NCBI RefSeq assembly: GCF_003416765.1
Contig: NZ_QSNG01000001.1
Location: forward strand, 1,452,742-1,516,741
DNA: 64,000 nt
Source of the DNA: Paratractidigestivibacter faecalis
Lineage (GTDB): Bacteria > Actinomycetota > Coriobacteriia > Coriobacteriales > Atopobiaceae
Direction: 5' to 3'
Shown: in pieces, positions 34,241 through 63,650 of the stretch
Position numbering within the stretch: position 1 is the first letter of the stretch
Layout: each line of letters opens with the position of its first letter
The notes under the pieces: model-generated
Told to the model about the DNA's origin: nothing
What the model saw: only the letters and a program-made list of their open reading frames with translations
The model's database searches: none
Translations under genes and position numbers: made by a program

Positions 34241-34623
34241 CGCTTTGAAGTGAGAATGGGACGGATGCCCAAAACACGTCGATCGTGGCGTCAAGCGTAC
34301 TGGACGCGCTAACACCGCTGGCGCCACCGGCAGCAGCGACATCCGGGACGGGTCGAGCGCTGGCGATGGCATTTTCGGCGCACCTGGGGAGTAAATGATA
34401 CGGTGGCTTACACGGCGACGCTCGGCGGTATGCCGCGGCATTTCCCCTGATTGCTCCCGTTTTCATTGAGGCGGCGAGATTCTTTGCTCCCCATTAACCA
34501 CCTGGGGAAACGCCGTACGGAGACCGCAAAAACGCCCGTTGAGTTCGATTTGAGTTTCACGGGCCCCGAAACGGCGTCGTTTCGCCCCCGGGGACAAAAA
34601 CCGCGCGTCTACTCACTTGGGAT

Positions 34624-34896
34624 GAATCCTTACTCCCGTCCCCCCCCCCCCCGAATGCCGCCCCGTGCCTTGTTGTCTTTAAATGCGGGGAGTAAATGGC
34701 GAAATCTCAGGTGAAAAGGAGTAAATAGCCAAAGAAAAAGCCTCCGTTCCAACGCGGGGACAGAGGCCAGATCATCGTATTTACTCACCGCCGTCGCTGG
34801 CGGCTTTGCCGTGACTATCGTACGAAACGAAACTCAACGCCACAGTGCGGCACTCAAAAATGCAGGTCAGAACCCTATCGACCTACTCCCACTCGA
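34624..34896. repeat. Non-coding repeat, left half (copy A)
   Basis: From GAATCCTTACTCCCG to CTACTCCCACTCGA it matches 60585-60850 over about 270 bases with scattered differences. It includes a C13 tract (34640-34652) and a leftward hairpin around AAAAAGCCTCCG. It breaks exactly at TACTCCCACTCG, where the RloC-like segment begins. Confidence 0.85.
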
Positions 34897-35007
34897 CATT
34901 GAGATTTTGCATCGTCATAAATCGTTATTCCCTTTGATTTCGCATAGTGCCCACAGTGGACATAGGAGAAAGAAGAACGCGTACTCAAACGATACTCGCA
35001 AATGCCT

Positions 35008-37254
35008 TTATTCCGCATTGGATTCAACGGTTTCCTTGTACACATCCCCCATCATCATCTTGTAATGTTCAATGTTCTCGCTGACCTCGAAAATTCTTTT
35101 GAAGACTTCTCTATATTTGTCAGGAGATTCCGAATAGCTATCGATGTACAAATCATCTGGAATCGAGTGAGAGCCATCATTCATCCAAGCAAACAATGAT
35201 CTGCAAATTATCTTATCTTCGATAGTTTCGAATCGATTTTCGATTTTGTCGGACTTATCTTTTCCGAGCATCCGGAAATAGTTTTCTATGATTCGACGCA
35301 TTGAGTTCTGAAGTGCGATAGTGCTGGCAGAACGGCTCTTAACCTCCTCCCAAAGCAATTCATATGAGGTTTTGATTGGATTGGTGCTGCCATGGTCCTT
35401 AATGAATGATTGATTTCCACGCTTTTGGATCGTCCAGTATTTCGTATTCCTGTCGTCATATGCTTTTCCTTTTGAGAACGATGCTTCTTTATGGAAAAAT
35501 GCATTGTGGGTGAGTACGAATACCTGCTTTACTTCACTTTGATTCTTTTTTGCATCGTCAATCAATTGCTTCACCATACAGCTGACAATGTAGAGGACGG
35601 TGCTATCTAAGCTGCAGATAGGATCGTCGATCACGACAATCTTTTCTTGTGCGAATTGATTAGGGTCAACTGATCCCTTGATAAGTTGCATGAAATAGAG
35701 AAATGCGACAAAAGTCTCCTCTCCCTCACTTAGGGTCTTACCAGCAGGAGAACCGTCGGGTCTAACAATTTGGTATGCATTTTCTGACGCACCTGAAGGC
35801 TGGATGCTGAATCCATCGAAGCCATACGCTAACAGTGAACGATTTATTTCATCGACTGTCGGTTGTATGCTCGTGATTCCTTTTCTGGCTTCAACAATTT
35901 GTTCGTTGAAGTTTTTTTCGTAACCTTTTTGTTCCCTGATGGTTTTCTCAAGACCCTTCTTTGCACCCTCTAGTTTTTTGATGGCTTCCTCATGCGACTG
36001 GATTGCAGCTGCGCCAATCTTTCTTAGAGTCGCCCATGTATCCTTAAGAAGTCGTTCTTTTTCCTTGCTGATGTTTAGCATTGCCTCATTATGCTCGATG
36101 ATTGCATTATTGATGACAGTTATCTGCTGCAACAACTCCTCGTACAGTTTGCTGCATGAGCTAATCGTGACCCTTCTGCTAGGCTCCGCCACTTTGCCCT
36201 CCATCAGCTTGATGTTTTCTTCAATTGCAGGGCGGATTTCTAATACTTTGGTCTCGAGCAACTGCCGACTCTGATCACCGCAAGCAACGATAAATGGGTT
36301 TTCTAAAAGTGCTTCAAATATCGTTAAAAGTGCACCAGCAGTGGATCGATAGCAGTTTAATTCGTCTTTCGCCTTACGAAGATTGGTCTCATATTGATTG
36401 TCAAAGAAAGATTCAAGCTGGGTCTTTAAATCGGAGGTGATCGTATGTTGCTGACAGAACGGACACACATCCGTTTCGTCGACATAAACCATACCTTGCC
36501 TAACCCAGTCGGAATTACCAAGGGTACCAATAAGCTCGGCTATGCCAACATCCTGATTGCCTATGATGGCCAATTCCCAAATATCGCAAGTTTCGCAATT
36601 ACCCAAATTGTCGACAAGGGTTCTAAATGAATCAATACTGATGCTTTCGTAGGTGTTCGGTTCTCCTGAGAATACGTCAGCGATTTGGGCTTCTAGCTCA
36701 TCAATGGTGACGCTGGGCTCTTCTCCCGGCTTTTCGAGTAACTTCGATGCGAATTTCGATTTACTGTTTCTGTATCCAGTAAGGGCTGGCCCAAGCAGCC
36801 GTTCATTTGGCTTAAGAACGTTATCCCAAACGCTATCACGGAAAGACTCTGTCGCATCGTCTATTTGTTTTTGTTTGTCTTCCAGTTGCTTATTGGCTGA
36901 AGAGATTTTCTCTTGAGTTCTTTGGAGCTTATCTAGAAGATCATCGATATTCTTCTGAGCTTCGACAGAATCGGAACCCAGGGTAAATACACCTGGGAAG
37001 TTCTGTTGATCTCGAAAGTTTTCCTCTCGCCACTCCTTGTTGTAGACAATGATTTCTGAAGAATCCCCATCCCATTCAATTGAGGATGGCTCTGAGTCAA
37101 GATCATCTTGATTTCTTAGAAGATTGCTGATGGTTGATTTGCCGCTTCCATTTGGGCCGTAAATAAAGTTTGCAATAGCGCAGCCCTCAAAAGAGGAGTG
37201 TTGCTCCTGAAAAACACCGTGTCCACTCATGTGGATTGCTTTTATAGCGCCCAT
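35008..37254 (-). CDS. RloC/PrrC-like AAA ATPase, putative anticodon nuclease
   Basis: 748 residues, ABC/SMC-type ATPase of the AAA_13 family. Walker A GPNGSGKST (33-41), long coiled coils broken by a zinc-hook-like CPFC (264-267), signature LSEGEET (508-514), Walker B VVIDDPICSLDS (540-551) and H-loop LTHNAF (His583). RloC and PrrC cut tRNA anticodon loops with an Arg-x3-Glu...His triad in the C-terminal domain; here R653-x3-E657 and His696 (MNDGSH) are compatible. Role: likely phage defence by abortive infection. Its ATG lies inside the end of the 94-codon frame, so translation is coupled. Much more AT-rich than its surroundings; the nuclease function is inference. Confidence 0.72.
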   Translation of the reverse strand: MGAIKAIHMSGHGVFQEQHSSFEGCAIANFIYGPNGSGKSTISNLLRNQDDLDSEPSSIEWDGDSSEIIVYNKEWREENFRDQQNFPGVFTLGSDSVEAQKNIDDLLDKLQRTQEKISSANKQLEDKQKQIDDATESFRDSVWDNVLKPNERLLGPALTGYRNSKSKFASKLLEKPGEEPSVTIDELEAQIADVFSGEPNTYESISIDSFRTLVDNLGNCETCDIWELAIIGNQDVGIAELIGTLGNSDWVRQGMVYVDETDVCPFCQQHTITSDLKTQLESFFDNQYETNLRKAKDELNCYRSTAGALLTIFEALLENPFIVACGDQSRQLLETKVLEIRPAIEENIKLMEGKVAEPSRRVTISSCSKLYEELLQQITVINNAIIEHNEAMLNISKEKERLLKDTWATLRKIGAAAIQSHEEAIKKLEGAKKGLEKTIREQKGYEKNFNEQIVEARKGITSIQPTVDEINRSLLAYGFDGFSIQPSGASENAYQIVRPDGSPAGKTLSEGEETFVAFLYFMQLIKGSVDPNQFAQEKIVVIDDPICSLDSTVLYIVSCMVKQLIDDAKKNQSEVKQVFVLTHNAFFHKEASFSKGKAYDDRNTKYWTIQKRGNQSFIKDHGSTNPIKTSYELLWEEVKSRSASTIALQNSMRRIIENYFRMLGKDKSDKIENRFETIEDKIICRSLFAWMNDGSHSIPDDLYIDSYSESPDKYREVFKRIFEVSENIEHYKMMMGDVYKETVESNAE

Positions 37255-37526
37255 TCAAAACCTACTTTCCAGTCCAAGGGCTCTTGCCATCGGGGGGTGT
37301 TCATCCAGTAGCCGGGGTCGTAGGTCTTCTTCCAGTCCTCGTACTCCTTGCGGGTGATCTCCTTGGCATCGAGCCTCTGCTTCATCTCTTTCCAATCCCT
37401 GAGGAAGCCGTCGAAGGTCAAGCCAACGGTATAGAGGCCACCGGTGGTGACGGGCCGACCATCAAGCTCGGTGATGGTGTAAACCATGAGTTCGTCGTTC
37501 TCCAGGAGGGCGTAGAAGAACTCCAT
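37242..37526 (-). CDS. Unknown 94-residue protein upstream of the RloC-like gene
   Basis: Acidic protein: YALLENDELMVYTITELDGR, then TTGGLYTVGLTFDGF and a C-terminal MKQRLDAKEITRKEYEDWKK reminiscent of short SHOCT-like tails. It overlaps the ATPase gene by 13 bases (FEWAL-stop / MGAI). The same frame stays open about 35 codons upstream (..IFSAPEFGPK before the Met) with protein-like sequence but no start, so it may be the tail of a truncated gene. Function unknown; by position a possible regulator or partner of the ATPase. Confidence 0.55.
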   Translation of the reverse strand: MEFFYALLENDELMVYTITELDGRPVTTGGLYTVGLTFDGFLRDWKEMKQRLDAKEITRKEYEDWKKTYDPGYWMNTPRWQEPLDWKVGFEWAL

Positions 37527-37954
37527 CTTAGGGCCAAACTCCGGTGCGGAAAAGATGTGTTCTTGCGTCCCTTGGCTGTATTCCGATTGCTGACGATATG
37601 GAGGAAGTCGAGCCGCTCCAAATTCAAGGTTAGCTTAACCTGAGTATTGTATGAGTAGCAGAGGCTGTTGTTCTAGAACGACAATCTCTGCTTGAGTATA
37701 TTATTTTGAATGGTTGCTGTTGGAGCTTGCCATAAGCACAAAATCGTAACGTTGTGGGTGTTTCCAATCGAATAATTAGTAATCATGAAGGTGAATATGC
37801 AGCTCAGATGCATGAAAATGGTCCTCTGGGTTAATCACAGAGGACCACTTAGCTTTCATGGTGCCGAGTGGTTACCTGATGATTTCAGTGCATATCGAGC
37901 AACTGAATTGCACTCGAAACTACTCGAATCAAACATTACAATAATGTGCGGATT

Positions 37955-38688
37955 TACTCCCACTCGGTGGCACCGTTTCTGCTGTCCCGTCATTCCAGTT
38001 GCGCCCAGTTTTTGGTGTCGCCTCGAGCCGAGTGCCGTCAGGTAACGCTATGTCGTGTTTCATCGGCTTCGGGGACAAAAGTTGGGACAACTTCAAAAAC
38101 TATTTTCAAACTCAGGGCCTTGAGTTTTTGTCCCAAGGGGCACGGCGAACAGCCTTAGAGGCTCGATATCGACGAAAACGCCCGCTTTGAAACTCAAGTG
38201 CCTTTTCGCGTGCAAGCCGCCAGCTGCAATGGGAAGTGAATCAACGCAGGTGGCTTTCAAGCAGTTTGCAAAACTGCAGGTCGCAGGCCTTCATTGCTAG
38301 TAGGGGAAATGAGTAGTCTCAGGTGGCTTGCCCATGAGCTGGCGAGCAGGTCGGAGCTTCGTTGTTGGCGCGATCGCTTCGTGCGCGCTCGATAGGCCTG
38401 TTTAACAAAAGGCCTATCGGATGCGACTGGTCGCCCATACGGCGACGGCGTTTCCCGTGCGGGCGCGAACGGCCCCGTGTGCCCTATCGAGCGATATCCC
38501 CGTATGACGCTCAGAACTCCTGCTCGCCGAGCAGCCACCTCGCAAGATCCAGCACGAACACGCCCTCTCGGGTATAGGGCTCATGCCTCGTGCGGGCGAT
38601 GAGGACCTTCGGGAACGCATCCCTGACGGACAGGAGCGGCGCGAGCTCCCTCTCGAGCGTCGATTCGGAGCTGATGTCGTCACTTACC
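37955..38688. repeat. Non-coding repeat, right half (copy B)
   Basis: Begins with TACTCCCACTCG and matches 60838-61531: the TGTCCCGTCATTCCAGTTG block, the GGGACAAAAGTTGGGACAAC block, a CAAACTCAGGGC/TTGAGTTTTTG hairpin, the ACGGCGTTTCCCGTGCGGGC block and then the end of a DUF4143 ATPase. The rest of 37527-38510 has no gene I can support. Confidence 0.85.
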
Positions 38689-39721
38689 TGAATGTAGACG
38701 AGCTCCGACCCCCTCTTCGCGACGAAGTCGACCTCCTTTTGGTACAGCTTCCCGACGTAGGTCTCGTAGCCTCGCCTCATCAGCTCCAGGAAGACCGCGT
38801 TCTCGTACATGCGGCCCCAGTCCATGTCGCGCGTCCCCAGGACCGCATAGCGCATTCCCGAGTCGCATACGTTATGCTTCGCCTGCGTGCTCAGATATTA
38901 CTTCCCCTTGATGTCGTAGCGCTTCGCCTCATAGAAGACAAAAGCGTCGCGGAGGTAGGAGATGTAGCGCCCGATGGTGACGTGGTTGGTGGGAACCCTG
39001 TTGGCGTCGAGGACGTTGGCGATGTTGTTGGGCGAGTTGAGGTTGCCGGAATTGTCCATCATGTACTCGGCCAGCCTCTCCAACACGGTGGAGTCGGGCA
39101 GCGAGAACTTCTGGACGAGGTCGCGCGTGAGGATGGTCTTATAGACATCGCGGATGTAGCCGTACGACTCCGAGATGTCATCGTAATCGTAGGACCCGGC
39201 GAGCCCGCCGCGCCTGATGAGCCCGTCGAAGTCGTCGTCGACGGCCCCTTGCTCGCCGAAGTAGGAGCGGTATTCACCGAAGCTGAAGGGGGGATGTGTA
39301 CCTCCCTGTGGCGCCCCGTGAACAGGGTCGCCAGGTCCGAACTCAGGAGGAACGCGTTCGATCCCGTGAGGTAGACATCCCATCCGCCGCGCGCATGAAT
39401 GCTGTTAATTGCCTTCTCGAAACCCTCGCACAGCTGCACCTCGTCGATGAAGAGACGGTTGCGGGCGCCCCCCTTGTGCCGCTCTATGATTTCGCGATGC
39501 AGCGCGTGGTACTCGAGCAGCGGCTCGTTGTCGAGGTCCAGCAGATCGATATAGACGTTGTTGGAGGATGGGTCCCTCCGAGCAACGGAGGCGGAGAACA
39601 CCTTCATGAGCTCGGACTTGCCGGAGCGGCGCATTCCCGTGACCACCTTGTGTCCCGGGCGCCCTCGAACGCCCAAAGCCGCTCCATGTACGTATTGCGG
39701 TCTACCTAAGCCATCATCCAC
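38511..39721 (-). pseudogene. DUF4143-type ATPase with frameshifts and a stop
   Basis: Leftward gene in pieces. TYMERLWAFEGA (one frame) shifts to HKVVTGMRRSGKSELMKVFS (Walker A) and VYIDLLDLDNEPL, RLFIDEVQLCEGFEKAINSI and YLTGSNAFLLSSDL. It shifts again near 39285 to FGEYRSYFGEQG, YIRDVYKTILTRDLVQKF and VTIGRYISYLRDAFVFYEAK, where a TAA (38898) intervenes. It resumes with [30 protein letters not shown] and the C-terminus at 38511. At least two shifts and one stop: inactive. A GTTTCGAAAC palindrome lies at its 5' end. Confidence 0.85.
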
Positions 39722-58492: not shown

Positions 58493-59931
58493 GGGGGTGC
58501 GGACAATTTCTTAGACACTACGGAGAGAGTACCCCAGGTCCCTGCGGTACTGCTCCGGGCTCCTCCACCCCAGGCTCCGCTTGATCCTGCCCGAGTTGTA
58601 GTAGGCGAGGTAGCCCGCCAGGCGCCGCCGGAACTCCTCGAAGCCCACCCCGGACCAGTCCCTGCCGTGGTAGAACTCCTGCTTGAGCCGGCCGAAGAAG
58701 CCCTCGGCCGCGGCGTTGTCGGGGCTGCGGCCCTTCCTCGACATGCTGCGCACCAGGCCGTGGCGCTCGCATATCGCCGCCCAGCCCGGCCACCTGTAGT
58801 GGCAGCCGCGGTCGGTGTGGACCACGGGCCGCTCGCCGGCCGCGAGCGTCGAGGCCGCCGCCTCCAGCATCGAGTCGGCCATGCGGGCGTCGGGGGACTC
58901 CGACAGGGTCCACGCCACGACCGCCCCGTCGAAGCAGTCGACCACCGGCGACAGCCAGCAGCGCCCCGACCCTATCGTGAACATGGTGACGTCGGTGACC
59001 CACAGCTCGTTGGGGCGCGAGGCGGAGAAGTCGTGGGTGCCGTCGGGGCGCAGCGGCAGGTTGGGAGGGGCCTCGGAGACCTCGCCGGCATAGCTGCTCC
59101 AGCGCCTGCGGCGCCTCAGGTAGCGCACCTCGAGCCCCTCCTCGCGCATGACGCGCCTCACGACCTTCTCGGAGACCGCCAGGGGCTCGTCGGGGTCCAG
59201 GCGCAGCCTCGCCCATATCGTGCGGTAGCCCCAGGCCCCGCCCCCGGCCTCGAACAGGGCGCGCACCCGCGCCCTCAGGGCGGCCAGGCGGTCGGGGGCG
59301 CCCCTGCGGGCGCGGTGGTAGTAGTAGGTGCTGCGCGCCACGCCGGCCGCGCGCAGGGCGTCCTCCAGGCCGAACCCGGGCCTAAGGGCGTCGGCGACCA
59401 GCGCCCTCTCCGCCGCCGTCAGCGAGTCCGGGCCCCGCCCCGGGCCGCCTCCTTTTAGGACGTCCAACACCGCCTCGGCCCTGGCGAGCTCCAGCCTCAG
59501 GGCCCGGTTCTCGGCCCTGAGGGCCTCCAGGTCCCCGGGGTCGGCCGGCGGCGGCACGCGCGGGGCGCCCCGTCCGTTCGCGAGCGACACCTCGCCCTCC
59601 CTCCCCGCGGCGCGGGCCCAGCCGCGCACGGTCTCCGGGTGGCAGCCGATCGACGCGGCGACCTCGGCGGGGTCCTCCCCGGCGAGCGCCCTGCGCGCGG
59701 CGTCGGCCCTCTGGGCAAGAGTATAGGGGGCGTGCCAGCCGACGCCCAGGTCGCCGGACGCCCAGCGCCTGATCGACTCGGCGGAGGCGAGCCCCGACTC
59801 CCTGGCGAACCTGTGGGCCGGCCGGCCGGACTCGCGCCAGAGCCCCAGGATGGCGTCCCTCTCGTCGCTCGAGTACATTGCGGGCTCCAATCCGGACGCC
59901 TGTCGGCGTCCAACTTTTCGTCCGCACCCCC
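58493..59931. mobile_element. IS3-family insertion sequence in the IIA gene
   Basis: 1439 bases. Ends GGGGGTGCGGAC (58493-58504) and GTCCGCACCCCC (59920-59931) are perfect 12-base inverted repeats, weaker inwards. Target duplication GGG flanks it (58490-58492 and 59932-59934). One leftward transposase gene. Extremely GC-rich compared with the PTS genes. Confidence 0.93.
58511..59878 (-). CDS. IS3-family transposase, single-frame form
   Basis: 455 residues from ATG 59878. N-terminal helix-turn-helix regions (SDERDAILGLWRESGRPAHR, and IGCHPETVRGWARAAG), a short Leu/Ala coiled coil (DLEALRAENRALRLELARAE), HTH_21-type GVARSTYYYHRAR, then the DDE core: NELWVTDVTMF, PVVHTDRGCHYR and SPDNAAAEGFFGRLKQEF, ending GYLAYYNSGRIKRSLGWRSP. 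Most IS3 elements need a -1 frameshift between OrfA and OrfB; here both parts are in one frame. No damage is seen, so it may be active. Confidence 0.93.
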   Translation of the reverse strand: MYSSDERDAILGLWRESGRPAHRFARESGLASAESIRRWASGDLGVGWHAPYTLAQRADAARRALAGEDPAEVAASIGCHPETVRGWARAAGREGEVSLANGRGAPRVPPPADPGDLEALRAENRALRLELARAEAVLDVLKGGGPGRGPDSLTAAERALVADALRPGFGLEDALRAAGVARSTYYYHRARRGAPDRLAALRARVRALFEAGGGAWGYRTIWARLRLDPDEPLAVSEKVVRRVMREEGLEVRYLRRRRRWSSYAGEVSEAPPNLPLRPDGTHDFSASRPNELWVTDVTMFTIGSGRCWLSPVVDCFDGAVVAWTLSESPDARMADSMLEAAASTLAAGERPVVHTDRGCHYRWPGWAAICERHGLVRSMSRKGRSPDNAAAEGFFGRLKQEFYHGRDWSGVGFEEFRRRLAGYLAYYNSGRIKRSLGWRSPEQYRRDLGYSLRSV

Positions 59932-60032
59932 GGGTATCTTTCATTCCCTCAGCAAGACGACCGTGCGATGCCAGAACTACCTGCATATCGGGACTCCAAA
60001 CTTTGTTATCCGCTGTAATATTGTCATTGCCA

Positions 60033-60584: not shown

Positions 60585-61531
60585 GAATCCTTACTCCCGT
60601 TCCCCCGAATACCGCCCCGTGCCTTGCTGTCACGAAACACGGGGAGTAAATAGAGAAATCGCAGGTGAAAGGGAGTAAAAAGGTAAAGAAAAAGCCTCCG
60701 CCCCAACATGGAAACGGAGGCTCGATAATCGGTTTTACTCACCAACGTCGCTGGCGGCTTTGCCGTGACTCTCGTACGAAACGAAACTCAGCGGCACAAT
60801 GCGGCACTCAAAAGTGCAGGTCAGAACCCTGTCAGCCTACTCCCACTCGATGGCTTCGGTTCTGTCGTCCCGTCATTCCAGTTGCACCCAGTTTTCGGCA
60901 TCGACACGGAACGCGTGCCGCCGAATGACGCGATGTCGCGTTTCGTCGGCTTCGTGGACAAAAGTTGGGACAACCTCAAAAACTTTTTTTCAAACTCAGG
61001 GCATTGAGTTTTTGTTTTTGTCCCAAAGGGCACGGAGAGCCGCCTTTGGAGGCTCGATATCGCCGAAAACGCCCGTTTTGAAACTCAACCGCCTTTGAGC
61101 CTGCAAGCCACCAGCTTCAACAGTAAGTGAGTCGACGCGGGTGGCTTACGAGCCGTTCACAAAACCGCAGGCCACAGGTCTTTGTCAACGATAAGCAAAG
61201 TGAATAGTCTCAGGTGGCTTGCCCATGAGTTGGCGTAAGCCTGTTTAGCAAAAGGCTAATCGGACACGACAGGCCGCCCGCATGGCGACGGCGTTTCCCG
61301 TGCGGGCACAAACAGCCCTGCGTGCCCTGTCGCGCGATATCCCAATGCGACGTTCAGAACCCTACCCGCCAAGCAGCCACCTCGCGAAATTCAGCACGAG
61401 CACGCCCTCCCGGGTATGGGGCTCATGCCTCGTGCGAGTGATGAGAATCTTCGGGAATGCATCCCCGATGGATAGAATCGGCGCAATCTCCCTCTCGAGC
61501 GTCGAATCGGCGCCGATATCGTCGCTCACAT
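60585..61531. repeat. Continuous non-coding repeat with single TACTCCCACTCG (copy C, unoccupied)
   Basis: Left part (60585-60850) matches 34624-34896 and right part (60838-61531) matches 37955-38688. The 12-mer TACTCCCACTCG at 60838-60849 occurs once. It therefore represents the site without the RloC-like insert. The remainder of 59987-61361 has no gene I can support. Confidence 0.85.
61362..61531 (-). pseudogene. DUF4143-type ATPase C-terminal fragment
   Basis: VYVSDDIGADSTLEREIAPI then LSIGDAFPKILITRTRHEPH and REGVLVLNFARWLLGG, closely matching the end of the pseudogene at 38.5 kb ([20 protein letters not shown]). Upstream the sequence switches abruptly at a GGTTTCGAAACC element. Only about 55 codons remain. 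Confidence 0.75.
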
Positions 61532-62055: not shown

Positions 62056-62363
62056 CCAGGGCCATCTTCAGCGCCTCATCGGCCAGCTCGGCAGGCGCCT
62101 CTTCCACGCGTAATAGCCCTGGCGGGTCACCTACGCAACCAAAGATACAAAAGGGATCGAATGGCCAGAAAGGATTGTCCTTGCCGACAGGCAATCCTTG
62201 ACAAACGAGCTTCAGCCTCCTTAAAATTGCGTGGTTTGCCGAACTGAGTCAGCGAAGGAGGGGTGTCGTGGTTGGTCTTTTCCGCACGTGGATGAGCGCC
62301 TAAAAAGCGGCGCTGTTATGGCGTCGCGCTGTTTTGCACGCCATTCCACGATTGGACATAACC

Positions 62364-63650
62364 ATGATGTTTGAAACCTCTCGGCGCAGGTCTGTTTCGC
62401 TGTGCCATTCATGGCAATTTAAGATTTGTTTCGTATGGGGCGGGGAGCTCGTGTCGACATTGACGAGCTCGATTCTCCAAATGGGTCTCATTTGGCATAT
62501 CGCCCTCACGACAGGATCATCTTCCCTCCTCTCCCTGGCATCGCTGGCAGGCTTTCTGCCGATTGCTTTGTTCGGAGTCCTTGCGGGCGCCGTTGTCGAC
62601 AGACTGCCTTTGAAGCGTGTCCTCATCGGCGCCGACCTCTTCGTTGCCGCGGTGGGCGCCGCCTTGGCGATTGCCTCGTTGGCCGGCAGCTTACCTGCGT
62701 GGTCAATACTCATCGCCCTGTTTCTCCGCGCAGCTGGCACTTCGTTCTACACGCCGGCCTCCCAATCCCTCACGCCCCATCTCGCCCCGCCAGAGCATCT
62801 CGTTCGCCTATCGGGAGTGATGCAAGCGATTCAGTCCGCCGGATACATTTTTGGCGCCGCGCTCGCGGCAGTGATTTATCCTGTGGCGGGCATTACCGCT
62901 ATGATTGTCCTCGACGTGCTGGGAGCGCTTTTCGCTTCTTTAGCCGTCCTCGCCGCACAGATAGACGCAGGGGGACTCGACGAAGCCGACCGCAGCTTGC
63001 CCTTTTCCAATAAGGTTCGAGAGCTCTTCTCTGAGATTTCGGACGGCTACAAGCTGACTAGGGGGTACAGGGGGCTGCTCGCCCTTCTTTGGTGCGGGTT
63101 CGTCTTCGCTTTCGCGTTCTCTCCGCTCGCGGCATTGTTCCCAATAATGACCTTGGGGCATTTTGGCGGTAGCACGGGGGATGCCGCTTTGGCGGAAATC
63201 CTTTTTTCTGCAGGCATGCTGGCTGGGTCCGGCATCTTGGCGGTTACGGGAGGGTTCCGCAATAGGTCGTTCACCATGGTCGCCGCGATTGCCGGCTTCG
63301 GCATTGCCGCAATCGTATCCGGATCGCTCGGCCCGTCATTGTTCGCTGCTTTCCTGCCGGTGAGCTTTCTTATGGGCGCATGCTCCCCGTTGTACGCGGG
63401 AACCCAGACTGCCCTTATGCAGGAGCAGATACCTCCTGAGTACCTAGGCCGCGTTTTCGGCCTCTACGGAACCATCATGGCGTGGGCCATGCCCATGGGC
63501 CTCGCGGCCCCCTCCGTTTTTGCGGATCTGCTTGGAGCTCCGTTATGGTTTGTCGGCTCTGGAGCGACCATGGTACTGCTTGCGATGGCTATGCTGCTTG
63601 CTCCGAGCGTCCGAAACGTGGGGAAAAGAGATACCGGGCGGATTCAATAG
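62364..63650 (+). CDS. Mef-like macrolide-efflux MFS transporter
   Basis: 428 residues, about twelve membrane helices. WQFKICFVWGGELVSTLTSS, then ILQMGLIWHIALTTGSSSLL, LAGFLPIALFGVLAGAVVDR and LIGADLFVAAVGAALAIASL align with Mef(A) (..IWAGQAVSLITSAILQMAI.., ..FLPYAVFGPAIGVLVDR..), as does LRAAGTSFYTPASQSLTPHL. Start at ATG 62364; a TTG ten codons earlier is possible. It is followed by an Msr(D)-like ABC-F gene, the same order as in mef-msr operons. A diverged member of the family; macrolide export is inferred. Confidence 0.82.
   Translation: MMFETSRRRSVSLCHSWQFKICFVWGGELVSTLTSSILQMGLIWHIALTTGSSSLLSLASLAGFLPIALFGVLAGAVVDRLPLKRVLIGADLFVAAVGAALAIASLAGSLPAWSILIALFLRAAGTSFYTPASQSLTPHLAPPEHLVRLSGVMQAIQSAGYIFGAALAAVIYPVAGITAMIVLDVLGALFASLAVLAAQIDAGGLDEADRSLPFSNKVRELFSEISDGYKLTRGYRGLLALLWCGFVFAFAFSPLAALFPIMTLGHFGGSTGDAALAEILFSAGMLAGSGILAVTGGFRNRSFTMVAAIAGFGIAAIVSGSLGPSLFAAFLPVSFLMGACSPLYAGTQTALMQEQIPPEYLGRVFGLYGTIMAWAMPMGLAAPSVFADLLGAPLWFVGSGATMVLLAMAMLLAPSVRNVGKRDTGRIQ

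Follow-up and report, generated by a model that had tools for sequence, protein, structure and literature searches.

The locus lies in a 64,000-nucleotide stretch of the Paratractidigestivibacter faecalis genome, referred to here as the window, in a region whose GC content is 43–46% compared with 62% for the window. It holds a gene for an RloC-type ABC ATPase on the minus strand, a 94-codon frame preceding it on the same strand and, around both, two copies of a guaA-type direct repeat. Coordinates of these features, of the flanks and of an uninterrupted counterpart of the insertion site are given in Table 1.

Table 1. Features of the locus, in window coordinates
Feature	Position	Strand	Basis or remark
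Left flank	34368-34894	.	Repeat directly downstream of guaA in this genome; 87% to C1:1546515-1547034
Att-like direct repeat, copy 1, TACTCCCACTCG	34884-34895	+	guaA 3′ end on the minus strand, CGAGTGGGAGTA
Cassette distal end	34896-35007	.	Its counterpart in the OLD-like cassette of G027 (L047:11310-11424) is 72% alike
RloC-type ABC ATPase / anticodon-nuclease gene	35008-37254	-	748 aa; Pfam, PADLOC, motifs, predicted fold
94-codon frame, C-terminal relic of an XRE regulator	37242-37526	-	N-terminus lost, tail frame-shifted
Probable RloC ribosome-binding site, GGAAAGTAGG	37261-37270	-	Common to the G027 OLD-like cassette; homology between the cassettes ends here
C6 run where the relic leaves the ancestral frame	37292-37297	-	Other-frame tail ...DGKSPWTGK-stop
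AT-rich stretch, 42% GC	37551-37954	.	Expected position of the HTH half and the usual L-end
Att-like direct repeat, copy 2, TACTCCCACTCG	37955-37966	+	Junction alignment
Right flank, island end repeat (R type)	37955-38687	.	About 75-76% to window 60838-61529, L047, L100 and L101
Uninterrupted insertion-site counterpart	60585-61529	.	A single att copy (60838-60849) joins left- and right-type ends

The RloC-type ATPase and its restriction context

Pfam AAA_13 covered the whole 748-aa protein (E = 7.6e-161), the PADLOC candidate family PDC-S06 matched it with E = 4.7e-234, and the PADLOC PrrC model matched its C-terminal third (residues 508–732, E = 2.9e-14). The ATPase motifs comprise the Walker A sequence GPNGSGKS (residues 33–40), the signature LSEGE (508–512), a Walker B/D-loop element VVIDDP (540–545) with SLDS, and the switch histidine in LTHN (581–584). 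The coiled-coil insert that splits the ATPase carries the zinc hook CPFC (C264-P-F-C267, a CX2C motif), followed further on by the triad R653-x3-E657-x38-H696, with S695 in front of the histidine; all of the hook and triad residues named in a preliminary description of this DNA were found at the positions it gave. In an alignment of 14 sequences, consisting of the window protein and 13 homologues (28–40% identical), the two hook cysteines, LSEGE and most Walker B and switch residues were invariant, and R653 and E657 were at least 90% conserved. H696 with its preceding serine was kept in the nearer homologues and was absent from the most distant clade. The members of that AAA_13 clade (L038, L039 and L040), which keep most ATPase motifs and miss the triad histidine, are possibly not typical anticodon nucleases.

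RloC is defined by an R-x3-E-x36–52-H triad, often with a serine before the histidine, a length of 658–897 aa and a CX2C insert (PMC2610378), and the window protein combines the ATPase motifs, hook and triad spacing with a length inside that range. On the basis of the AAA_13, PDC-S06 and PrrC-model matches, and of a motif set that fits the published definition, we conclude that it is very likely a stand-alone RloC, an ordinary member of a known anti-phage tRNA-cutting family, and the RloC/PrrC-like assignment of the preliminary description thus holds. It resembles the RloC proteins of Geobacillus kaustophilus and Acinetobacter baylyi (PMC2610378, PMC3874168) in its length class, Rad50-like split ATPase, CX2C hook and R-x3-E-x36–52-SH triad, and these too usually have no restriction partner and are found in mobile DNA, the G. 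kaustophilus rloC lying in an IS4-family transposon and adjoining an hsdR relic. Unlike them, the window gene follows an XRE relic in a 3-kb segment that has a guaA 3′-end copy on either side, and is known here from sequence.

The AlphaFold model of the whole ATPase was moderate (pLDDT 77, pTM 0.42), with long helices on both sides of the CPFC hook, and its best PDB neighbours were Rad50/SMC heads with coiled coil; sequence searches of the PDB with the ATPase alone, and then with the 14-sequence profile, gave no match. The C-terminal 135 residues were modelled as an all-helical domain (pLDDT 75, pTM 0.70), weakest around H696, which sits in a poorly modelled loop. Comparison of this domain with the PDB by Foldseek and VIA-align returned no significant match, and HEPN chains were scattered among the insignificant ones. 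The nuclease domains of RloC and PrrC have been assigned to the HEPN superfamily (PMC3710099), and an all-helical model is as expected for a HEPN domain. Both the Rad50/SMC neighbours and the lack of a significant fold match for the C-terminal domain would suit a Rad50/SMC-type repair or DNA-maintenance protein with no ribonuclease activity; however, Rad50 and SbcC have no C-terminal triad domain (PMC2610378), the near homologues retain the R-x3-E and SH residues, and residues 508–732 fit the PrrC model. We therefore consider such a repair role extremely unlikely and retain the assignment to RloC.

A search of the genome (99% complete) with N6_Mtase (PF02384) gave 0 matches, and no type I methylase was detectable; the same search was positive in 13 of 14 well-known genomes. 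PrrC is an anticodon nuclease that is held by a type I restriction enzyme and encoded together with hsdMSR. The preliminary description, which had this PrrC arrangement in mind, was borne out in placing the ATPase outside a restriction system but took its absence as unusual. For RloC it is normal: 8 of 72 RloC genes are at a type I or type III locus and 12 occur in bacteria with neither (PMC2610378), and RloC is governed by an internal switch, with a putative break sensor and a coupled ATPase, DNA-break inducers activating it even in a restriction–modification-deficient host (PMC3874168). Because RloC is rarely linked to restriction enzymes and has its own switch, a missing restriction system is the normal state here, and an RloC alone in a genome without restriction enzymes is in line with the self-switching model of the family.

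The window protein shares with PrrC an ABC ATPase followed by an anticodon-nuclease triad, and its homologues, at about 25 loci, occur both within hsd loci and standing alone. Several lie inside hsdM-hsdS-hsdR loci (L028, L034 and L041) or directly after an hsdS-like gene (L030), the hsd names having been read from translations without an HMM test. Such loci would fit descent from a PrrC-like ancestor whose restriction enzyme was lost, the window gene being a decaying or inactive remnant, but the reading frame is intact over 748 codons with every motif kept, and other homologues stand alone. Length and zinc hook are those of RloC, whereas PrrC is about half as long (341–416 aa), has no hook (PMC2610378) and is encoded with hsdMSR, of which this genome, having no N6_Mtase match, shows no type I locus. 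A PrrC remnant is thus very improbable, and the window gene is better described as an RloC.

The 94-codon frame

The two frames lie as the preliminary description had them and overlap by 13 bases, although the overlap itself depends on an apparent +1 shift in the C run at 37292–37297. Compared with the frame that reads ...DGKSPWTGK-stop and ends inside the RloC ribosome-binding site, the 94-codon frame carries an extra C, which could be a sequencing error.

Relatives of the 94-aa protein were found in 17 of 140 genomes of the family (E ≤ 0.001), among them complete XRE regulators whose C-terminal half aligns with the 94-codon frame and whose HTH was confirmed by Pfam. In at least three of the loci examined (L059, L063 and L065) the XRE relative adjoins a tyrosine integrase gene, the integrase at L063 being Pfam-tested and the rest read from sequence or genome search, and another XRE of the same type lies within the guaA end of the island in this genome. 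The HTH half is absent from the window: at the DNA level, similarity to the closest relative extends only to 37550. This closest relative, in G027 (L047), is 68% identical over 78 residues; it is a pseudogene with an in-frame TGA and frameshifts, and it precedes an OLD-like nuclease. Before the C run, the window and G027 relics differ at 15 first, 12 second and 31 third codon positions, and this third-position bias between two relics indicates that the domain was once under selection.

By tblastn, the 94-aa protein was found at none of the about 25 ATPase-homologue loci, and the XRE relative from G003 gave only one match at these loci, 5.5 kb away at a single locus. The 94-aa protein has no known family in PADLOC or NCBIfam, and a PDB search with it returned chance matches only. 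The SHOCT-like tail reported earlier did not stand: the match to SHOCT (PF09851) scored 14.4 bits (E = 0.033), below the cut-off of 27, and fell on residues 47–67, away from the tail.

Given the HTH-bearing XRE homologues, their integrase neighbours, the G027 pseudogene and the lack of a copy beside the ATPase homologues, we read the 94-codon frame from its sequence as a truncated, frame-shifted C-terminal relic of a mobile element's XRE-type HTH regulator. It aligns with the C-terminal domain of the XRE-type regulators that integrative elements of this bacterial family encode, but its HTH is lost and its tail frame-shifted, and it is a relic rather than an XRE member in function, possibly still translated.

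The preliminary description had instead taken the small protein for a possible new regulator or sensor working with the ATPase. In that case the 94-residue protein, translated from 37526, would act as a functional regulator, sensor or antitoxin that binds the ATPase or its DNA and restrains the nuclease in place of PrrC's restriction enzyme. The overlap of two frames running in the same direction would agree with this, as would the past protein-level selection indicated by the third-position bias, the regulatory ancestry of the frame and the potential toxicity of RloC. Yet the frame has lost its DNA-binding half and ends in residues that no longer follow the ancestral frame; its one close relative is disrupted and precedes another kind of nuclease, and RloC regulates itself (PMC2610378, PMC3874168). 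Conservation of the small frame next to ATPase homologues, on which that proposal had been made to depend, was seen at none of the about 25 loci. We regard a functional regulator as very improbable, and recognizing the frame as a broken XRE relic removes a false lead, the supposed new RloC partner. Two further readings were rejected: a new toxin–antitoxin pair, for want of linkage, and a regulator produced as an outright fusion or by frameshifting, since no HTH half is present.

By analogy with the RloC proteins that have been studied, the window RloC would be kept silent by its own zinc hook and ATPase head and triggered by DNA breaks or phage-altered DNA; once freed, it would cut tRNA in the anticodon loop, and translation and phage growth would stop. 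The activity expected of an RloC is that of a zinc-responsive, wobble-excising tRNase. Neither a restriction enzyme nor a small partner would be needed. We infer the trigger, the tRNA substrate and its cleavage, expression and the defence role alike from those proteins, whereas family membership, domain architecture and motifs are seen in the sequence itself. The 94-codon relic would play no necessary part, its translation at most helping ribosomes to reach the overlapping RloC start. Promoter-like sites were fewer than in shuffled sequences, and none lay on the minus strand upstream of RloC.

A segment between guaA-type repeats

Homology of the left flank ends at 34894–34896 and that of the right flank starts at 37955, with TACTCCCACTCG at both ends, and the two flanks are joined directly at window 60838 and, in four other genomes, at L047, L100, L101 and L103 (five uninterrupted L–R joins). 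The 12-mer is the 3′ end of guaA (...TIEWE-stop), as the guaA genes of this genome and of L047 show. Three exact copies stand in the window, where shuffled sequences average 0.01; two weaker att-like sites, at window 42879 and 51000, each carry a mismatch and were left out. The breaks in flank homology, the repeats and the uninterrupted joins together identify 34896–37954 as a 3.07-kb insertion with a core duplication at a guaA-type att site. The mobile segment of its own that the preliminary description had suggested can thus be drawn more sharply, flank homology stopping exactly at the 12-bp direct repeats; its movement we infer.

RloC is the only ORF of more than 150 aa inside the segment, which contains no integrase, whereas att copies stand on both sides (34884 and 37955). 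IMEs with tyrosine integrases are known to insert at guaA 3′ ends, and elements that have decayed by losing the integrase while keeping their att sites are termed CIMEs (PMC5704250). Two tyrosine integrases close to this locus (C1:1526604 and C1:1544627) are candidates for moving the segment. The lack of an integrase, together with probable movement in trans, makes this a CIME-like element: relic and RloC would travel together as an integrase-free segment flanked by guaA 3′-end copies, probably moved by tyrosine integrases that neighbouring islands encode and that target guaA. With the guaA-targeting IMEs and CIMEs (PMC5704250; ATE-1, GIsul2 and the IncP island) it has in common site-specific insertion at the guaA 3′ end and tandem accretion, and with CIMEs the presence of att sites without an integrase; unlike these, the window segment is only 3 kb long and is known from sequence. 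A literature search combining guaA with this bacterial group found nothing relevant.

The stretch 37530–37965 has no relative among the other 139 genomes of the family. Within its AT-rich part, upstream of the relic, lies a 36-base imperfect palindrome (37657–37692, AGCAGAGGCTGTTGTTCTAGAACGACAATCTCTGCT), a candidate operator or hairpin.

Of the 140 family genomes, 16 contain the left repeat in a 276-base version, with tandem copies in several of them. Across several genera, one version of the left end keeps about 90% identity, which suggests recent spread of one island family. At window 60585–61529 and in L047, L100, L101 and L103, guaA-type att junctions stand in tandem, their left and right ends conserved.

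A second cassette and the contents of guaA-linked islands

In G027, the segment L047:8537–11414 holds, in order, the regulator relic, GGAAAGTAGG, an OLD-like AAA–TOPRIM nuclease, the distal end and an att site. The nuclease gene (L047:9596–11272) matched Pfam AAA_15 (4.4e-26), the OLD-like TOPRIM (4.3e-18) and PADLOC Old (1.6e-40), and the distal end is 72% alike to window 34876–34997. The next att-bounded segment in the L047 contig holds an AbiD/Abi_2 gene (L047:12550–13509). Two segments with a common relic, ribosome-binding site and distal end but different nucleases suggest that defence effectors have been exchanged behind a shared regulator end, in two cases. More tentatively, the guaA 3′ ends in this bacterial family may collect short att-bounded segments in which a platform of XRE gene, ribosome-binding site and distal end stays fixed and the effector is swapped, a generalization that is possible but for now doubtful. 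If effector exchange does take place, the guaA ends of these bacteria would offer a specific target in searches for small defence cargo, and further examples could be traced through the shared regulator end.

Several other genes were observed around these ends. Just inside the right flank, window 38511–39721 (minus strand) has a weak DUF4143 match in a gene that seems broken into overlapping frames, and an rve-type (IS3-like) transposase lies near the uninterrupted junction at window 58511–59986 (minus strand). The guaA-linked islands also carry a Mef(A)-like transporter below the curated cut-off (window 62334–63650, plus strand), an Msr-like ABC-F protein just below its cut-off (L047:4001–5470, minus strand) and a Tet(M/W/O/S)-type ribosomal protection gene above the cut-off (L100:8591–10510, minus strand).
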